Part shown: in pieces, positions 19,419 through 41,484 of the stretch
Layout of the letters: each line of letters starts with the position of its first letter
Numbering within the stretch: position 1 is the stretch's first letter
NCBI GenBank assembly: GCA_001725415.1
Contig: MEGH01000054.1
Span: 23,548 to 87,547 of the forward strand
Origin: Pseudonocardia sp. SCN 73-27
GTDB taxonomy: Bacteria > Actinomycetota > Actinomycetes > Mycobacteriales > Pseudonocardiaceae
Direction: 5' to 3'
Length of the DNA: 64,000 nt
Program-made: the position numbers and the translations under genes
Notes under the pieces: generated by a model
Told to the model about the DNA's origin: nothing
The model's input: only the letters and a program-made list of their open reading frames with translations
The model's database searches: none

Positions 19419-19486
19419 GGTTCAGGCGGTGCTGCGGTTCAGGCGGTGCTGCGGTTCAGGCGGTGCTGCGGTTCAGGCGGTGCTGC
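19419..19486. repeat. 17-bp tandem repeat, four perfect copies
   Basis: The unit GGTTCAGGCGGTGCTGC is repeated exactly four times without spacers. The copy nearest the phosphotransferase holds the last codons and stop of that gene (stop at 19473-19475), so the array looks like expansion of the gene end. The period is not a multiple of three, and every copy carries a TGA on the minus strand. It lies between two leftward genes (19302 and 19473). Confidence 0.95.
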
Positions 19487-20669
19487 GGAACGCCGGGTAG
19501 AGCGGAAGTGCGGCGGGGGCGTCGGAGAACCGGGCTCGCAGGGCCGTGGTGATCGACTCGGCGAGCTCCACCGTCGCCCCGAGTCCTTCTGCGTCGGCCG
19601 CCGCGGCACCGAGGCGGCGCCAGTAGTCGCACAGAGCGGTGCTGATCCGCGGCGACCTGCCCGTCTCAGGTCCGACCGACGTATCGCGTTCCCGGATGCG
19701 CGGCAGGAACCACCACGTGCACAGCCACACCCACAGCAGCTGGGCGTCGAGGAGCCGACGGTCGAGGCGCAGCGGGTCGTCGAGGTCCGGCCAGACCACG
19801 GCGATCTCGTCGCGCCAGGCCTCGAGCATGGCCTCGCTCATCCCGTCGGGCATCGCGAAGCTGGCGCGGCAGCCGGGGAACGGGACCCGGAAGTAGGCGG
19901 CGTCGAGGGCGACGTCGCGGAAGCAGCCCCACTCGAAGTCGACGAACCGCACCCCGCGGCTGGTGACGAGGTTGTTGTCGGGGCAGGTGTCGGACGGGCT
20001 GAACGCCCGGTAGCGGGTGCCGCCGAGCAGCCGCGCCGTCTCGTGGGCCTGGGCCTGCGCCGCCGCGGTCGTGGACACCCCGAGGACCGACTGCAGCAGG
20101 TCGGGCACCCCGGCGATCGCGGCGCGGGCCTCGTCGGCGATCGGGTCGCGCCAGGCCTTCTCCCCCAGCCGGCGCAGCAGCGCCCCGAAGTCGTTCTCCC
20201 GGCCCGCCGTGGCAGCCTGCATCCGGCCGAGCGCGCGGGCCCAGCCGACCAGGTAGCGCTGCGCTGCGGCCGGGTCGGGCCCGAAGAGCTTGTCGGCGAG
20301 CGTGGAGCTGCGGCCGAGGTCCTCCAGGACGAGGAGCCGGGCCTGCGGGTCGTGGGCGATGATCACGGGGCTGGGCCGGGAGTCGGCGGGCAGCGCGGTG
20401 AACAGCTGGCAGCTGGCGACCTCGAAGCGGAACGGGTCGGGCCGGTCGGCGTCGGGCTCGGCGACGTAGTGCTTGACGACGACGCTGCGCCGCATCGAGA
20501 ACGGGTTGCGCGCCACGCGGGCGCGAGCGACCACCGACCGGTCGCTGCCGCCGAGATCCTCGGGATCGGCGAGCACGACCGACGCGCCGTACCGGCGGGT
20601 CAGCAGGCGCTCCGCAGCCGCCAGCGCCGCGAGCACCGGCCTGGGGAAGTCGGCCAGGTCACGAACCAT
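19473..20669 (-). CDS. Aminoglycoside phosphotransferase-fold (APH) family protein
   Basis: 398 residues. The kinase-like fold shows a nucleotide loop region (GGSDRSVVARARV), VVKHYV with the ATP Lys, LVLEDLG hinge, the catalytic loop FSPSDTCPDNNL, and FVDFEWG with the metal-binding Asp. The catalytic loop keeps D-x4-N but lacks the usual His two residues before the Asp (HGD becomes PSD). It probably phosphorylates a small molecule; the substrate is unknown and a resistance role should not be assumed. ATG 20669 starts the family-like MVRDLADFPRP. Its 3' end runs into the 17-bp tandem array. Confidence 0.82.
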   Translation of the reverse strand: MVRDLADFPRPVLAALAAAERLLTRRYGASVVLADPEDLGGSDRSVVARARVARNPFSMRRSVVVKHYVAEPDADRPDPFRFEVASCQLFTALPADSRPSPVIIAHDPQARLLVLEDLGRSSTLADKLFGPDPAAAQRYLVGWARALGRMQAATAGRENDFGALLRRLGEKAWRDPIADEARAAIAGVPDLLQSVLGVSTTAAAQAQAHETARLLGGTRYRAFSPSDTCPDNNLVTSRGVRFVDFEWGCFRDVALDAAYFRVPFPGCRASFAMPDGMSEAMLEAWRDEIAVVWPDLDDPLRLDRRLLDAQLLWVWLCTWWFLPRIRERDTSVGPETGRSPRISTALCDYWRRLGAAAADAEGLGATVELAESITTALRARFSDAPAALPLYPAFRSTA

Positions 20670-20849
20670 CGTGGTCGACCTTACCCGGCGGGCCCCCGCG
20701 CGAACCCACATGTCCGAAGCAGACGCCACGTACGGGCCGGCGACGCGTCCGCGGCGCGGTCCGACGCCGTCGGCGTCGCCCGCGCCGCATACGTCGCGGG
20801 TCTCCGCCCCGGCGTCCGAAGCCGGCCGGCCGTTGCTGCGCAACGGGTC

Positions 20850-23225
20850 TCACAGCAGGCTGAGCTGTTCGCCGTCGCGCCCGGCTCCCGCGTCCGGGGT
20901 GCCGGTCCGCCCGCGCAGCCGCATCGTCGTCACCGGCCGGTCGAGGCCGTGACGGCGCAGCAGGGGCGTGACCCGCTCCCCCAGCGCCCGGCGGTAGTCG
21001 GCGTCGACGTAGGCGCCGCGCCGGTAGAGCTGGGCGTAGCGCTCGACCAGGCCGGGGTGCTCCCGGGCGAGCCACTGCAGGAACCACTCCCGGGTGCCCG
21101 GCCGCAGGTGCAGTGCCAGCACGGTCGCCCCCGTGGCGCCGGCCGCCGCGATCCGCTCCAGCACCGCGTCGAGCGCTTCGGCCGAGTCGGTGAGGAAGGG
21201 AAGGACCGGCGCGACCATGACCCCGCAGGGCAGCCCGGCGTCGGTGATGCGGCGGACGAGGTCGAGCCGGGCCCGCGGCGACGGCGCCCCCGGTTCCAGC
21301 CGGGAGTGCAGCTCCTCGTCGAGCAGCGCGATCGACACTCCGAGCCCGACGGGGACGTCGTCGGCCGCAGCGGCGATGTCGGGCAGGTCGCGGGTGAGGA
21401 CGGTGCCCTTGGTGAGCACCGAGAACGGCGTCCCCGTGCCGGCCAGGGCACGCAGGATGCCGGGCATCAGCCGGTAGCGGCCCTCGGCCCGCTGGTAGGG
21501 GTCGGTGTTGGTGCCCATCGCGACCGGCTCGCGGCGCCACCGCGGCCTGCGCAGCTCCCGGTCGAGGACGCGCGCCGCGTTGACCTTGACGACGATCTGG
21601 CTGTCGAAGTCGGCGCCCGCGTCGAGGTCGAGGTACGTATGGGTGTTGCGGGCGAAGCAGTTGTGGCTGATGACGCCCTCGGCGACGAAGTCGCCCGTGC
21701 CGGTGGTGATGTCGAACATCGGCCGACGCGTGCCGAGCTCCCGGACGGCGACGACCTGCGCGCCTTCCTGCGCGACGACGGCGCCGGCCATGTCGCGGAC
21801 CGCGGCCGCGGTCGGGTCGACACGGCCGACCAGCCGCGCGACGGTGCGGGCGTCGCCCGGCAGGACCGCCTCGACGAGTCCGCCGCGCCGGCCCCCGTCG
21901 ATGCCGCCGTGGGCCGTGGACGACGCGGCGAACCGCAGCCCCAGCCCACGACCGGCCGAGACCAGCCACTCGACCAGCTCGCGGCCGCGCACCCCGGCCA
22001 CCCGCACCACCAACCCGTCGGCGGTGCGGACACCCGCCGCGTCGAGCACACCGGCGACGAAACCGGCGCACCAGTCGAGCCCGGGCCGCAGCGGCCACCC
22101 GCTCGGCCCGGCCGGGACGCCCGCTCCCGCACGGACACCCCCACCGGCCGGCAGCGGCACGCGCCGCGGCCCGGACTCTTCACCCTCACGGCCGGGTCCG
22201 CGGGTCCGGACCCGCGGACCCGCCGCCGGGCGGCTCGGGACCGGCGACCACACGCCGGGCTCGCCGCGGACCCGCGACCACCGCCCGGGTCCCGCCGGAG
22301 CGGGCCGCCCGGCCGAGGCCGGACGCGCGGACCCGGACGCCGCCGGACGCTCGGGGCCCGGCACCCCGGGACCGCAGCGACCGGCGGGCACCGCCGTGGG
22401 ACCGCTCCCGTCGCGCGGAAGACCCGCCAGGCCACTCCGCACCGAGGCGCCGGCCGCGACGACGCCCACCGGAACCTCGTCAGCAGCGTGGTTCTCCGGC
22501 AGGCCGGGATCGGCGGCGGCAGCGACCATCCGGTGCAGCCGCGCCAGCGTCTCCAGCGGCAGCCTCTCCGACGGGAAGGTCTCCCCCTCGTGCGCCGCGG
22601 GATGCGCCGCATCGGCCCGGGCGACCCCGCACAGGTACCCGGCCCGGTAGCCCGGGGTCCACTCCGGCGCCTCCACCGGCGCCCCCGGCCCGAGCAGCGT
22701 CTCCCCTGCACGCAGGTGCGGCCGGCGCCCGCTGCGACACCATCCGGGCGCCACGTGCCGCCAGCCCCGCTCGGTGAGGAAACGGTGCTCGCCGCTGGTG
22801 ACGAGGCGCGTGCCGTCGCTCAGCTCGACCTCCCAGCCCTCCCGGTCGGTCCCCCAGTGGGCGAGGACCTCGGTGCGGACGTAGCGGCGGACACCGTCCG
22901 GGCCCGTCTCGGTGCCGAGGACCGCGTCGCCCACGCCGAGCTCGGCGATGGGCCGCGTCCGCCCGTCGGCCAGCAGGACCCTCGTCGCCCCGTCGAGGCA
23001 GTAGACGCACGCGTGCGAACAGCCGCGGTACGGGTTGACCGTCCACGAGAACGGCATCGGCGAGCCACCCGGCACCCTGTTCAGCATCGACTTCGCCTCC
23101 ACCTCGTGGAACACCGTGCCGGCGAAATCCGGCGTCCGTACGCTGCGCAGCAACCCGCGCAGCCCCGGCAGCGCCGCATCGCCACCCACGCCGTCGTCCC
23201 CGACCTGCTGTCCGCTCCACCGCAC
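20850..23225 (-). CDS. Intein-containing radical SAM protein, Rv2578c family
   Basis: 791 residues. The host protein is residues 1-75 plus 523-791 (344 residues, the size of Rv2578c). It is a radical SAM / SplB-like enzyme with HEVEAKSMLN, YRGCSHACVY, then GTNTDPYQRAEGRYRLMPG and LTKGT. The 4Fe-4S motif CxxxCxxC needs Cys69, Cys73 and the Cys just after the intein (Cys523), so the cluster site exists only after splicing. GTG 23225 aligns with the family start. An SOS box lies 8 bp upstream, implying LexA control. The function of the family is unknown; a link to DNA damage is inferred from the SOS box and SplB similarity. Divergent from gluconokinase. Confidence 0.93.
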   Translation of the reverse strand: MRWSGQQVGDDGVGGDAALPGLRGLLRSVRTPDFAGTVFHEVEAKSMLNRVPGGSPMPFSWTVNPYRGCSHACVYCLDGATRVLLADGRTRPIAELGVGDAVLGTETGPDGVRRYVRTEVLAHWGTDREGWEVELSDGTRLVTSGEHRFLTERGWRHVAPGWCRSGRRPHLRAGETLLGPGAPVEAPEWTPGYRAGYLCGVARADAAHPAAHEGETFPSERLPLETLARLHRMVAAAADPGLPENHAADEVPVGVVAAGASVRSGLAGLPRDGSGPTAVPAGRCGPGVPGPERPAASGSARPASAGRPAPAGPGRWSRVRGEPGVWSPVPSRPAAGPRVRTRGPGREGEESGPRRVPLPAGGGVRAGAGVPAGPSGWPLRPGLDWCAGFVAGVLDAAGVRTADGLVVRVAGVRGRELVEWLVSAGRGLGLRFAASSTAHGGIDGGRRGGLVEAVLPGDARTVARLVGRVDPTAAAVRDMAGAVVAQEGAQVVAVRELGTRRPMFDITTGTGDFVAEGVISHNCFARNTHTYLDLDAGADFDSQIVVKVNAARVLDRELRRPRWRREPVAMGTNTDPYQRAEGRYRLMPGILRALAGTGTPFSVLTKGTVLTRDLPDIAAAADDVPVGLGVSIALLDEELHSRLEPGAPSPRARLDLVRRITDAGLPCGVMVAPVLPFLTDSAEALDAVLERIAAAGATGATVLALHLRPGTREWFLQWLAREHPGLVERYAQLYRRGAYVDADYRRALGERVTPLLRRHGLDRPVTTMRLRGRTGTPDAGAGRDGEQLSLL
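21660..23000 (-). other. Intein (447 residues) inserted in the radical SAM cluster motif
   Basis: Residues 76-522 of the host. Block A begins with Cys1 (CLDGATRVLLADGRTRPIAEL). Block B is VTSGEHRFLTERGW with the His. The C-terminal blocks are MFDITTGTGDFVAEGVISHN, ending His-Asn before Cys+1 (FARNTH). All splicing residues are present, so it should be active. Two LAGLIDADG-like segments remain: one at residues 198-206 keeps its acidic residue (RAD), the other at about 383-395 reads GVLDAAG and has lost it. Between them lie about 130 Gly/Pro/Arg-rich residues encoded by palindromic DNA. The endonuclease is therefore probably dead or decaying. Confidence 0.92.
22194..22221. repeat. 28-bp perfect palindrome inside the intein
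   Basis: The 14-bp arm GGGTCCGCGGGTCC is followed at once by its exact reverse complement. Related GCGGACCCGCG-type segments recur at about 22265-22280 and 22322-22335. They fall in the low-complexity Gly/Pro/Arg part of the intein and look like a small GC-rich repeat spreading through a region under weak selection. Confidence 0.9.
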
Positions 23226-23233
23226 AGATGGAT

Positions 23234-23249
23234 TCGAACATGTGTTCGA
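23234..23249. promoter_or_regulatory. LexA-type SOS box upstream of the radical SAM gene
   Basis: TCGAACATGTGTTCGA matches the actinobacterial/Gram-positive LexA box TCGAAC-N4-GTTCGA exactly in both arms. It ends 8 bp before GTG 23225 of the radical SAM gene and is 53 bp upstream of the divergent gluconokinase start. LexA would block the radical SAM gene directly; an effect on gluconokinase is possible. Confidence 0.88.
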
Positions 23250-23302
23250 TGTCTCGGCAACCCCGCACACCACCCCGGTCGCCGACCGTGCATCCTGAGC
23301 CG

Positions 23303-23851
23303 GTGAGCGGCACCACAGCACCGGGCGGGCCCCACCCGGCGCCCACGACCCTCGTGGTCGCGGGGGTCTCGGGTTCGGGGAAGTCGACCGTCGCCCGCGC
23401 GGTGGCCGAGCGGACGGGCTGGGCGTTCGCCGAGGGCGACGACCTCCACCCCGAGGCGAACCGACGCAAGATGGCCGCCGGCATCCCCCTCGACGACGCC
23501 GACCGGCTGCCGTGGCTGCGGCGCATCGCCGACTGGATCGGGGAGCGGGAGCGGGCCGGGCGGTCCGGCGTCGTCAGCTGCTCGGCGTTGCGCCGCCGCT
23601 ACCGTGACCTGCTGCGCGACGGCCATTCGTCGGTCCGGTTCGCCCTGCTGCTGGCCGATCCGGACGTGCTCGACGCCCGGCTGCGGGCCCGGAGCGGGCA
23701 CTTCATGCCGGCGTCGCTGCTCGGGAGCCAGCTGGCGACGCTCGACCCGCTCGAGGCCGACGAGCCCGGCTCGACCCACGCCGCGGGGGTCCCGGTCGAC
23801 GTGCTGGTCAGCGCGGTGCTCGCCGCGCTCCCGCCCGCCCGGCAGGCCTGA
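23303..23851 (+). CDS. Gluconokinase
   Basis: 182 residues, GntK/IdnK type (usual size about 165-180). P-loop VVAGVSGSGKSTVARAVAERTGWAFAEGDDLHPEANRRKMAAGIPLDDADRLPWL is diagnostic, including GDDLHP for gluconate binding. CSALRRRYRDLLR and GHFMPASLLGSQLATLDPLEADE follow as in known gluconokinases. It makes 6-phosphogluconate for the pentose phosphate pathway. GTG 23303 was chosen; GTG 23288 is also in frame. Divergent from the SOS-linked radical SAM gene. Confidence 0.92.
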   Translation: MSGTTAPGGPHPAPTTLVVAGVSGSGKSTVARAVAERTGWAFAEGDDLHPEANRRKMAAGIPLDDADRLPWLRRIADWIGERERAGRSGVVSCSALRRRYRDLLRDGHSSVRFALLLADPDVLDARLRARSGHFMPASLLGSQLATLDPLEADEPGSTHAAGVPVDVLVSAVLAALPPARQA

Positions 23852-38059: not shown

Positions 38060-38075
38060 ACGAACAGCCGTTCGA
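38060..38075. promoter_or_regulatory. LexA-type SOS box upstream of ruvC
   Basis: On the minus strand it reads TCGAACGGCTGTTCGT, that is TCGAAC-N4-GTTCGT, one base from the perfect palindrome. It sits about 20 bp before the ruvC start. ruvCAB is a known LexA target in mycobacteria, which supports the call and also the box at 23234-23249. Confidence 0.85.
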
Positions 38076-38682: not shown

Positions 38683-41484
38683 CTAGTGCGCTGCCGTGTC
38701 CCAGCTCGCGCCGTAGCCGACCGAGACCTCCAGCGGCACCGACAGCTCGTGCGCGGCCGCCATCTCGCGACGGACCAGCGCGTCGACCGCGTCCCGCTCG
38801 CCGTCGGCCACCTCGAGCACCAGCTCGTCGTGGACCTGCAGCAGCATCCGGCTGCGCAGCCCCTCGGCCTGCAGCGCGGCGTGCACCCGCAGCATCGCGA
38901 CCTTGATGATGTCGGCCGCGCTGCCCTGGATCGGGGCGTTGAGCGCCATCCGCTCCGCCATCTCGCGGCGTTGCCGGTTGTCGCTGGTCAGGTCGGGCAG
39001 GTAACGGCGACGCCCCAGCATCGTGGCCGTGTAGCCGTCCTTGCGCGCGACGTCGACGATGCTGCGCAGGTAGTCGCGAACGCCGCCGAAGGTCTCGAAG
39101 TAGTCGTCCATCAGCCCGCGCGCCTCTTCGGTGGAGATGCGCAGCTGCGCCGACAGCCCGAACGCCGACAGGCCGTAGGCCAGGCCGTAGTTCATCGCCT
39201 TGATCTTGGCCCGCTGCTCCGGGGTGACCGCCGCGGCGTCGACCTCGAACACCTTCGACGCGGTCTCGGAGTGGAAGTCGCGCTTGGAGTTGAACGCCTC
39301 GATCAGCGCCTCGTCCTCCGACAGGTGCGCCATGATCCGCATCTCGATCTGGCTGTAGTCGGCCGTCATCAGCTGCGCGTACCCGTCGCCGACGACGAAC
39401 GTCTCGCGGATGCGGCGGCCCTCGGCGGTGCGGATCGGGACGTTCTGCAGGTTCGGGTCGGTCGACGACAGCCGGCCGGTGGCCGCGATGGTCTGCGAGT
39501 ACGTGGTGTGGATGCGCCCGTCGGCCGCGATGGACTTGAGCAGCCCGTCGACGGTGACCTTGAGCCGGGTGGCGTCGCGGTGCTGGAGCAGGTGCATCAG
39601 GAACGGGTGTTCGGTCTGCTCGAACAGGCTCTGCAGCGCGTCGGCGTCGGTGGTGTACCCGGTCTTGGTGCGCTTGGTCTTGGGCATGTTCAGCTCGTCG
39701 AACAGCACGACCTGCAGCTGCTTTGGCGAGCCGAGGTTGATCTCCTTGCCGATGACCGCGTAGGCGTCCTGCGCGGCCTGCTGCACGCGGCCGGCGAACT
39801 CGGCCTCCAGCGACTCCAGGTGCGCCCGGTCGACCGCGATGCCCGCGGCCTCCAGGTCGGCCAGGACGAACGCGAGCGGCTGCTCCAGCTCGAGCAGCAG
39901 GCCGTTCTGCTCCTTCTCGGCCAGCTCGGTGCCCAGCGCGTCGGCCAGCTCGGCGACGGCGGACGCCGCGACCATCTCGGCGTCGGCGTGCTCGCGGTCG
40001 GCCTCGTCCTCGCCGCCGAGCAGCGACAGCTGCCCGTCGGCCGGGGCGCCCTCCATGGCCAGCTCGCGACGCAGGTAGCGCAACGCCAGGTCGGCGAGGT
40101 CGAACGAGCGCTGCCCCGGCCGGGCCAGGTAGGCGGCGAGCGCGGTGTCGCTGGTGAGGCCCCCGAGGGTCCAGCCGCGCCCGCGCAGGGCGTGCAGCAC
40201 GGCCTTCACGTCGTGCGAGGCCTTGGGGACCGACGCGTCGGCCAGCCACTCCCCCAGCGCCGCCTCGTCGTCCGGGGTGAGGCCGCGGACGTCGAGGTAG
40301 CCCGCGACGGGGACGCCCGCCTGCGCGCCCGCGGCGCGGTCCTCGACCGTCGGCTCGCCCGTGGCAAGCGCGATTCCGGTGAAGTCGCGCTCGGTGATTC
40401 CGCCGGAGACACCGGAGAACGCCACGCCGACCCGGTGGCCGTCGCGGGCGTGGTCGGCCAGCCAGGTGCGCACCGATCCGGGCGCCACGATCGTGCCCTC
40501 GACGTCGAACCCCGACTCGGCCTCGGGCTCGGCGCTCTGCAGCGTGGAGAACAGCCGCTCGCGCAGGACTCGGAACTCCAGCTCGTCGAACAGCCGGTGC
40601 ACCGCGTCGCGGTCCCAGGGGCGGACCTCGAGGTCGTCGGGGACACCGTCGAGCGCGACGTCGCGCACCAGCTCGGTGAGCTGCCGGTTGAGCAGGACGT
40701 TGGCCAGGTTGGCGCGCAGCGCGTCGCCCGCCTTGCCCTTCACCTCGTCGACCCGGTCGGTCAGCTCGGCGAGCGAGCCGAACTCGCGCACCCACTTGGC
40801 GGCGGTCTTCTCCCCGACACCGGGGATGGACGGCAGGTTGTCACTGGGGTCGCCGCGCAGCGCCGCGAAGTCGGGGTACTGGCCCGGGGTGAGCCCGTAA
40901 CGGTTGTCGACCTCCGCCGGGTCGATCCGGCCCAGGTCGGACACCCCGCGCTTGGGGTACAGCACGGTCACGTTGTCGGTGACCAGCTGGAACGCGTCGC
41001 GGTCGCCGGTGGTGATGAGCACGTGGTAGCCGGCTGCCTCGGCCTGGGTGGTGAGGGTGGCGATGATGTCGTCGGCCTCGTAGCCCTCGACGGCGAACAC
41101 CGGGATGTTCAGCGCGCCCAGGACCTCCTTGATGAGGTCGACCTGGCCCCGGAAGTCGTCCGGGGTGGAGCTCCGGTTCGCCTTGTAGTCGGCATAGCGC
41201 TCCGACCGGAACGTCCGCCGCGAGACGTCGAACGCCACCGCCAGGTGCGTGGGCTGCTCGTCGCGCAGCAGGTTGATCAGCATCGACGTGAAGCCGTAGA
41301 CCGCGTTCGTGGTCTGCCCCGTGCCCGTGCGGAAGTTCTCCGCGGGCAGCGCGAAGAACGCCCGGTAGGCGAGTGAGTGCCCGTCGAGCAGCAGCAGCCG
41401 CCTGCTCGCGGGGGCGGGCGCGGCGGCGGGCGCCTTCGCGGGCGAGGCGGGCTTCTTCGCGGTGGTACCTGTGGCGGGGCTCAT
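38683..41484 (-). CDS. polA: DNA polymerase I
   Basis: 933 residues. After an Ala/Pro-rich tail of about 28 residues, the 5'-3' exonuclease domain ([53 protein letters not shown]). A middle 3'-5' exonuclease-like domain appears to lack the usual acidic residues, as in other actinobacteria. The polymerase domain has [34 protein letters not shown] and [14 protein letters not shown] 41484 begins the protein. An 11-bp tandem array lies 45 bp upstream. Confidence 0.97.

Follow-up and report, generated by a model that had tools for sequence, protein, structure and literature searches.

An SOS-boxed radical SAM gene of Pseudonocardia with a patchily distributed intein at its cluster motif

The window analysed here, a stretch of 64,000 nucleotides from Pseudonocardia sp. 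SCN 73-27, carries on its minus strand a gene for a radical S-adenosylmethionine (SAM) protein of the Rv2578c family (20850–23225), which is interrupted by an intein within its cysteine motif and preceded by a perfect LexA box. Does this combination constitute a switch, in which active enzyme requires both SOS induction and protein splicing, as an earlier note on this DNA had proposed, or do the promoter and the intein have separate histories? Our analysis argues for separate histories. The gene very probably encodes an SOS-regulon, SplB-like enzyme with a class 1 intein at its cluster motif, the intein being mobile, with a decayed endonuclease, and independent of the SOS control.

The interrupted radical SAM gene

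The minus-strand frame 20850–23225 is open, with a GTG start at 23225 (residue 1). The precursor scores 787.7 bits against NCBIfam NF038136 (intein-containing Rv2578c family radical SAM protein; curated cut-off 700) and 515 bits over residues 1–761 against NF038135 (Rv2578c-family radical SAM protein; cut-off 430), and it also has a Pfam Radical_SAM match. Consistent with the earlier note, inteins of this family are thus known, and both the intein and its insertion site are already catalogued in NF038136. Compared with that family, which has the same host protein and includes the intein within the match, the window intein is longer, has a decayed endonuclease and contains a low-complexity expansion. 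The closest named relatives of the gene belong to Pseudonocardia, and a search of its own genome gave a single copy, matched as two pieces flanking the intein. By its sequence, the product is a SplB-like, Rv2578c-family radical SAM protein of a soil bacterium. The likeness to SplB is a distant one: Pfam SPL gave no match in the window precursor up to E 0.01 (cut-off 27 bits) and was weak in 7 of 30 intein-free members (best E 0.0012; 15.3 bits in L007, Pseudonocardia sp. CNS-004), and matches between the profile and structures of spore photoproduct lyase are likewise weak (E 0.0025–0.0073; 5 of 6 matches).

Relatives were compared in a main sample of 80 rows, namely, the window and 79 named relatives, which are the best 80 of the scan and hence near relatives; the alignments (A1 and A2) hold 30 of the 32 intein-free rows and 30 of the 48 intein rows. 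One further relative, from Amycolatopsis anabasis (L024), was dropped for a frame break and is outside all counts; its N-terminal motif is not in frame before the C-extein, which suggests that either the gene is broken or the assembly is faulty there. All 32 intein-free rows are unbroken through the insertion site, as in Pseudonocardia sp. CNS-004 (GCSHACLYCFARNTH), and because these relatives read straight across it, the junctions are exact. The intein (21660–23000, minus strand, as are all parts of the gene) comprises 447 residues, 76–522, from Cys1 to His-Asn, and is inserted directly before the third Cys of CxxxCxxC. The N-extein (residues 1–75; 23001–23225) ends in Cys69-Ser-His-Ala-Cys73-Val-Tyr, and the C-extein (residue 523 to the end; 20850–21659) contains the radical SAM core. 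In the alignment, C68, C72 and C75 are invariant across 30 intein-free relatives, and Cys523 of the window protein is followed by FARNTH, as is the third Cys in the intein-free rows. The mature window protein would therefore have CxxxCxxC, with Cys69, Cys73 and Cys523 brought together by splicing. The length, position and residue numbers given in the earlier note agree with numbering from the GTG at 23225, and the comparison with intein-free homologues that it had suggested confirms the junctions.

The residue set of class 1 inteins is present in the sequence: Cys1, the block B histidine (Ser-Gly-Glu-His147; 22785–22796) and the C-terminal splice junction His521-Asn522/Cys523 (+1) (21657–21665). 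The earlier list of splicing residues stands, with the small correction that block B reads S-G-E-H and not TxxH; Ser at H-3 of block B is found in 39 of the 48 intein rows. Furthermore, all 48 share the insertion site, Cys1, the terminal His-Asn, Cys at position -3 and Tyr at -1. The window element thus appears to be an ordinary class 1 intein, predicted to splice itself, and is the longest of the 48 (the others have 143–349 residues). In the mechanism that we propose, Cys1, His147, His521-Asn522 and Cys523 would drive self-excision, as their conservation suggests, and upon excision Cys523 would take over from intein Cys1 as the third cluster ligand, yielding the mature enzyme.

The SOS box and the promoter around it

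Taking TCGAAC-N4-GTTCGA as the LexA consensus palindrome, we found the window gene to have a perfect SOS (LexA) box, TCGAACACATGTTCGA, at 23234–23249 (minus strand), 8 base pairs (bp) before the start codon, exactly as the earlier note had described. The 6.95-Mb genome has 10 perfect boxes, and the reversed control pattern has none. Three of the nine boxes outside the window lie 14–24 bp before dnaB, imuA' and a gene for a DnaE2-type error-prone polymerase; of the other six, one is beside an oxidoreductase-like gene and five are beside frames without an NCBIfam match at E 1e-8. The genome has one lexA gene, the frame of which has no perfect box, the nearest sites matching at 11 of 12 positions and the first possible start lying 43 bp after one of them. 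The window itself contains two further GAAC-N4-GTTC matches (38062–38073 and 39601–39612), making three against 0.55 expected, a number reached in 0 of 100 shuffles.

The box is conserved regardless of the intein. A box matching at no fewer than 10 of 12 positions precedes the cysteine motif in all 80 rows, 48 of 48 with the intein and 32 of 32 without it, and in 74 of the 80 a box of 11 or 12 matches lies near the set start. For comparison, 85 of 1888 450-bp blocks of the same loci reach 11 of 12, true sites counted in. Two rows (L035 and L071) had no start set by rule and are outside the spacing counts; among the remaining 78, the distance between box and start is 7–9 bp in 77 and exactly 8 bp in 59. 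The gene therefore has, by sequence, the mark of an SOS regulon member, namely, a promoter palindrome conserved in relatives. Since the box is found in all rows with and without the intein, the SOS layer is independent of the intein, and, as far as sequence conservation can tell, SOS control is ancestral and belongs to the enzyme. Side by side with the usual box, the gene of Actinomycetospora termitidis (L019) has a second one, the two adjacent SOS-like boxes lying 26 bp and 8 bp from the start.

The fixed distance may be explained by the box overlapping the -10 element of a promoter that fires at the start codon. In 68 of the 78 rows the last four bases of the box and the next two read TCGAAT or TCGACT, and a box 8 bp from the start places this hexamer 6 bp from it. 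Moreover, a TTGACA-like hexamer (5–6 of 6 positions) is present 16–18 bp upstream of the -10 in 52 of the 78 rows, a match found at 0.3% of 1600 positions drawn at random from these loci, their coding DNA included. In the window, the probable -10 is TCGAAT (23232–23237, minus strand), overlapping the SOS box 6 bp before the start codon, and a possible -35 is TTGCCG (23255–23260, minus strand; 4 of 6 positions), 17 bp from the -10. The promoter looks leaderless, with the transcript starting at the start codon. As the conserved sequence suggests, the arrangement TTGCCG-17-TCGAAT-6-GTG would produce a leaderless mRNA, and LexA bound over the -10 would keep the promoter off until DNA is damaged.

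SOS-regulated genes of similar kind have been described. Excerpts of PMC8565304 report SOS regulation of SplB-like genes in several species; like the window gene, such SplB or COG1533 radical SAM genes combine a SplB-like product with an SOS box, and they are distant in sequence. In Streptomyces venezuelae, the radical SAM gene vnz_31145 is listed in the consulted part of PMC9380542 as a LexA target that is 19.97-fold up with mitomycin C, with the box TCGACCGTTCGCTC at -61. Passages of PMC12924846 name the Rv2578c-family gene SVEN_6313 of S. venezuelae as the target of the integrase of phage Samy, caution that the SplB name is weak and state that, in the natural Streptomyces host of Samy, this gene has been inactivated; because of this inactivation, the enzyme may be dispensable. 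For Mycobacterium tuberculosis, a passage of PMC8151990 mentions a RecA-dependent ‘DNA repair photolyase’ and gives no locus number for it. The literature search returned no published study on the Rv2578c intein or on Rv2578c and LexA. Rv2578c is reportedly listed in the mycobacterial SOS-box literature, and the search found no such text.

Several observations weigh against a conserved, leaderless SOS promoter. The box TCGACCGTTCGCTC of vnz_31145, which may or may not be the same gene as SVEN_6313, is unlike those of the rows analysed here. The -35 of the window matches at only 4 of 6 positions, a level that 5.7% of random positions reach or exceed, and the leaderless start is deduced from spacing only. 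Furthermore, in a class survey of 178 genomes (79 with a match, 70 above the cut-off), the strict box-plus-start pattern was present at only 41 of the 70 genes. By intein state, the pattern is found in 14 of the 17 genes with an intein-sized span (>1150 bp) and in 27 of the 53 without one; the 17 do not include the window, which was matched as two separate pieces. Of the 29 genes without the strict pattern, 14 were inspected. Among these, twelve have a clear box that differs in spacing or sequence, one has a weak 9-of-12 box and one is cut by a contig end. Five have an 11-of-12 box 8–9 bp from the start and one has a perfect box 41 bp upstream; the weak box, at the usual place, belongs to a gene with an intein (G305). 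All 13 genes of one genus (g68) lack the strict pattern, and the six inspected (L094–L099) all hold GGGAAC-N4-GTTCTA starting about 46 bp upstream, together with a ribosome-site-like GGAGG before the start, so that the leaderless layout seems to have been replaced in this genus. On this sequence evidence, SOS control appears to be ancestral and to have taken on another layout in g68. In a family set of 200 genomes, listed in part, the gene is present in 167 and the pattern in 138.

Distribution, decay and conditional splicing of the intein

The intein is present in 48 of the 80 rows and absent from 32, numbers which describe the sample nearest to the window and are not a prevalence. On the C-extein tree (a quick tree), its distribution requires at least 12 changes between presence and absence, six of them forced by strongly supported branches; shuffled intein labels average 25 changes, so the real distribution is clustered and far from a single event. 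Both states occur, among the 80 rows, within each of Streptoalloteichus, Pseudonocardia, Amycolatopsis, Isoptericola and Promicromonospora. Moreover, in Pseudonocardia kunmingensis (L009) intein and extein have different affinities: the intein clusters with those of Promicromonosporaceae (Shimodaira–Hasegawa-like approximate likelihood ratio test 95; quick tree), the extein with Pseudonocardia. By this sequence evidence, the intein is a passenger of patchy occurrence that moves horizontally.

A phage source of the intein and a plasmid-borne copy were considered and rejected. The phage source was sought with the L013 intein as query instead of the window intein: the viral_contigs scan gave no confirmed relative, and a phage collection gave two distant matches, phage Rctr197k (28.2% identity over the whole length) and the terminase of DirtMonster (28.7% identity over 48%). 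As for the plasmid-borne copy, matches occur in 36 plasmid records, of which none covers more than 80% of the query, and the 10 listed cover exteins only. Gene 024 of Rctr197k (L108; KX853510.1, 1292–4561) is ‘radical SAM protein-like’ by name, but its match is SNF2-like (E 1.2e-4) and none to radical SAM was obtained; its name seems to have been carried over from its Rv2578c-like intein.

Judging from its sequence, the homing endonuclease of the window intein is decayed. The two LAGLIDADG motifs read YLCGVARADA (22608–22637, minus strand; located by alignment) and FVAGVLDAAG (22032–22061, minus strand), the acidic residue of DAEG being gone from the latter, and the window intein thus lacks the pair of motifs with acidic residues. 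Pfam LAGLIDADG found no match in it up to E 0.1 and does match the L013 and L061 inteins (1e-7 and 9e-9). Between the motifs lies a low-complexity expansion of about 100 residues rich in G, P, A and R, with imperfect repeats (22110–22510, minus strand, limits approximate); among the 20 of 48 inteins displayed, it is unique to the window, the 19 others lacking it. Selection was assessed by the ratio of nonsynonymous to synonymous differences (pN/pS), computed for 11 chosen pairs. Against the relative L003, the two exteins have ratios of 0.21 and 0.32, the N-terminal splicing part one of 0.40 and the endonuclease part one of 0.69, with 0.85 for the endonuclease part against L006; over these two window comparisons the exteins stay within 0.21–0.32. 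The 34-codon C-terminal splicing part speaks against a splicing domain maintained throughout: with values of 0.51 (L003) and 0.83 (L006), selection on it is not evident in the window's own branch.

These values and the long terminal branch that leads to the window intein in its tree, together with the decayed endonuclease and the expansion, are what one would expect if the intein were dead or dying and the gene gave no active enzyme in strain SCN 73-27. We regard this as highly improbable, as none of the key residues (Cys1, His147, His521-Asn522 and Cys523) has been lost, the reading frame is uninterrupted and purifying selection acts on both exteins. We rather propose that a mobile intein moved between lineages and that its endonuclease has decayed here, so that what remains is a splicing domain on which the host protein would depend.

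Could splicing nevertheless respond to the state of the cell? By analogy with known inteins, redox- or cluster-gated splicing is possible. MoaA is itself a radical SAM protein, and a redox trap in its intein was reportedly described by Callahan and colleagues in 2011. According to the sections consulted of PMC10663303 and PMC3922620, the Pyrococcus abyssi MoaA intein is redox-controlled by a disulfide between Cys-3 and Cys1. Like the window, it combines an oxygen-sensitive host enzyme with Cys at -3 and intein Cys1; it differs in host family and domain of life, and the disulfide is reported there and predicted here. The earlier suggestion that splicing may be redox-sensitive gains from this analogy, Cys73 at -3 of Cys1 reproducing the geometry of the MoaA trap. 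An oxidised Cys73–Cys1 disulfide would block the first splicing step and reduction would free it, so that the oxygen-sensitive enzyme would be released only in a reducing cell. We consider such a trap possible, if on balance improbable. Cys at -3 and Cys1 are present in 48 of 48 intein rows, and since 17 of the 48 inteins have no other Cys, the disulfide partner in these would have to be an extein Cys. However, the cluster motif and the chemistry of splicing already demand both residues, and finding them conserved is hence no sign that a trap was selected. In the proposed mechanism, redox gating through Cys73 and Cys1 is therefore a possible by-product of the place of insertion.

A gate acting through the cofactor site itself is a related idea. 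The precursor string (22998–23021, minus strand) still reads Cys69-Ser-His-Ala-Cys73-Val-Tyr-Cys76, with intein Cys1 in the third position. The statement of the earlier note that formation of the 4Fe-4S site must await removal of the intein is thus not established: the precursor keeps the CxxxCxxC spacing through Cys69, Cys73 and Cys1, and because Cys1 holds the place of the third Cys, a cluster might be loaded before splicing. Cluster- or metal-gated splicing, in which these three residues hold a cluster or metal and mask the nucleophile until the metal leaves, has a parallel in DnaBi1, where zinc blocks splicing by binding the catalytic Cys118 (in the available passages of PMC7360933). We deem it unlikely, as the argument is one of sequence spacing only and the barrel is split around the intein in the precursor, such that the cluster loop may not fold. 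The broader proposal, that the precursor binds a cluster or metal through Cys69, Cys73 and Cys1 and that the intein monitors the state of the very cofactor site into which it is inserted, with splicing blocked as long as a cluster holds Cys1 or Cys73–Cys1 is oxidised, seems to us unlikely. If it were true, the role of third ligand would pass on splicing from Cys1 of the intein to Cys523 of the extein, and any Cys1 intein located before the third Cys of a radical SAM motif would inherit the gate. Cys1 as a surrogate cluster ligand would offer splicing a clear route to read iron-sulfur status.

An evolved switch, giving active enzyme only if DNA is damaged and the redox state permits, would require that the SOS box and the intein belong together. 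Both are indeed present in the window with their key residues intact, and there is precedent for conditional splicing in a DNA-metabolism protein, the mycobacterial DnaB, whose inteins are under metal or oxidant control (as described in parts of PMC7360933 and PMC6195587). Such a switch is nonetheless very unlikely, and the inference of the earlier note that SOS induction and splicing are combined is not supported: the box is equally present in intein-free (32/32) and intein (48/48) rows, and the intein, with its at least 12 changes, is patchy even inside five genera. A link between intein and SOS control was rejected, the box being found in all 80 rows whatever the intein state. The dnaB gene of the same genome likewise has both an SOS box and an intein, so this pairing is not special to the Rv2578c-family gene. 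Nor is it confined to this genome, as the M. tuberculosis RecA intein lies in an SOS-controlled gene, resembling the window in this respect and differing from it in protein and site. The likeness to the mycobacterial DnaB inteins, which act as oxidative and zinc sensors, lies in conditional splicing in a DNA-metabolism protein and in the SOS-boxed, intein-bearing dnaB of the same genome; in contrast to the window intein, DnaBi1 belongs to class 3 and works by a different mechanism.

That dnaB (G000:C1:81567-81582; loci L083 and L111) starts 18 bp after its perfect SOS box. Its intein follows the Walker A sequence GLGK, begins with ALALDTP and ends with MVPTHN before STLGL; with Ala at position 1, we take it to be class 3-like. 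The intein_Nterm model did not detect this dnaB intein.

Collectively, the comparison separates two things that seemed coupled, namely, an SOS promoter, conserved and exact in its placement, that belongs to a SplB-like enzyme not yet characterised, and a mobile intein found at the cluster motif of that enzyme. Alleles of one SOS-boxed enzyme that lack the intein or carry a mini-intein or a large one, at times within a single genus, form a natural set suited to asking if an intein at a metal-ligand Cys alters enzyme output after damage.

Gene neighbourhood

No neighbour that would tell the function of the enzyme emerged from six-frame clustering of the flanks, which produced one uninformative merge of 79 loci and other, unassigned clusters of at most 29 of 79 loci. 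Homologues of the window gene at 19473–20843 are found near the Rv2578c-family gene in 25 of the 79 relatives. On the other side lies a gluconokinase-like gene (23228–23851, plus strand) in divergent orientation, such that the SOS box separates it from the radical SAM gene. The ATG listed for it, at 23228, almost abuts the box, and translation may instead begin at a later GTG. A gluconokinase homologue lies near the gene in 6 of the 79 relatives, all of them Pseudonocardia, divergently upstream in four and downstream in two.

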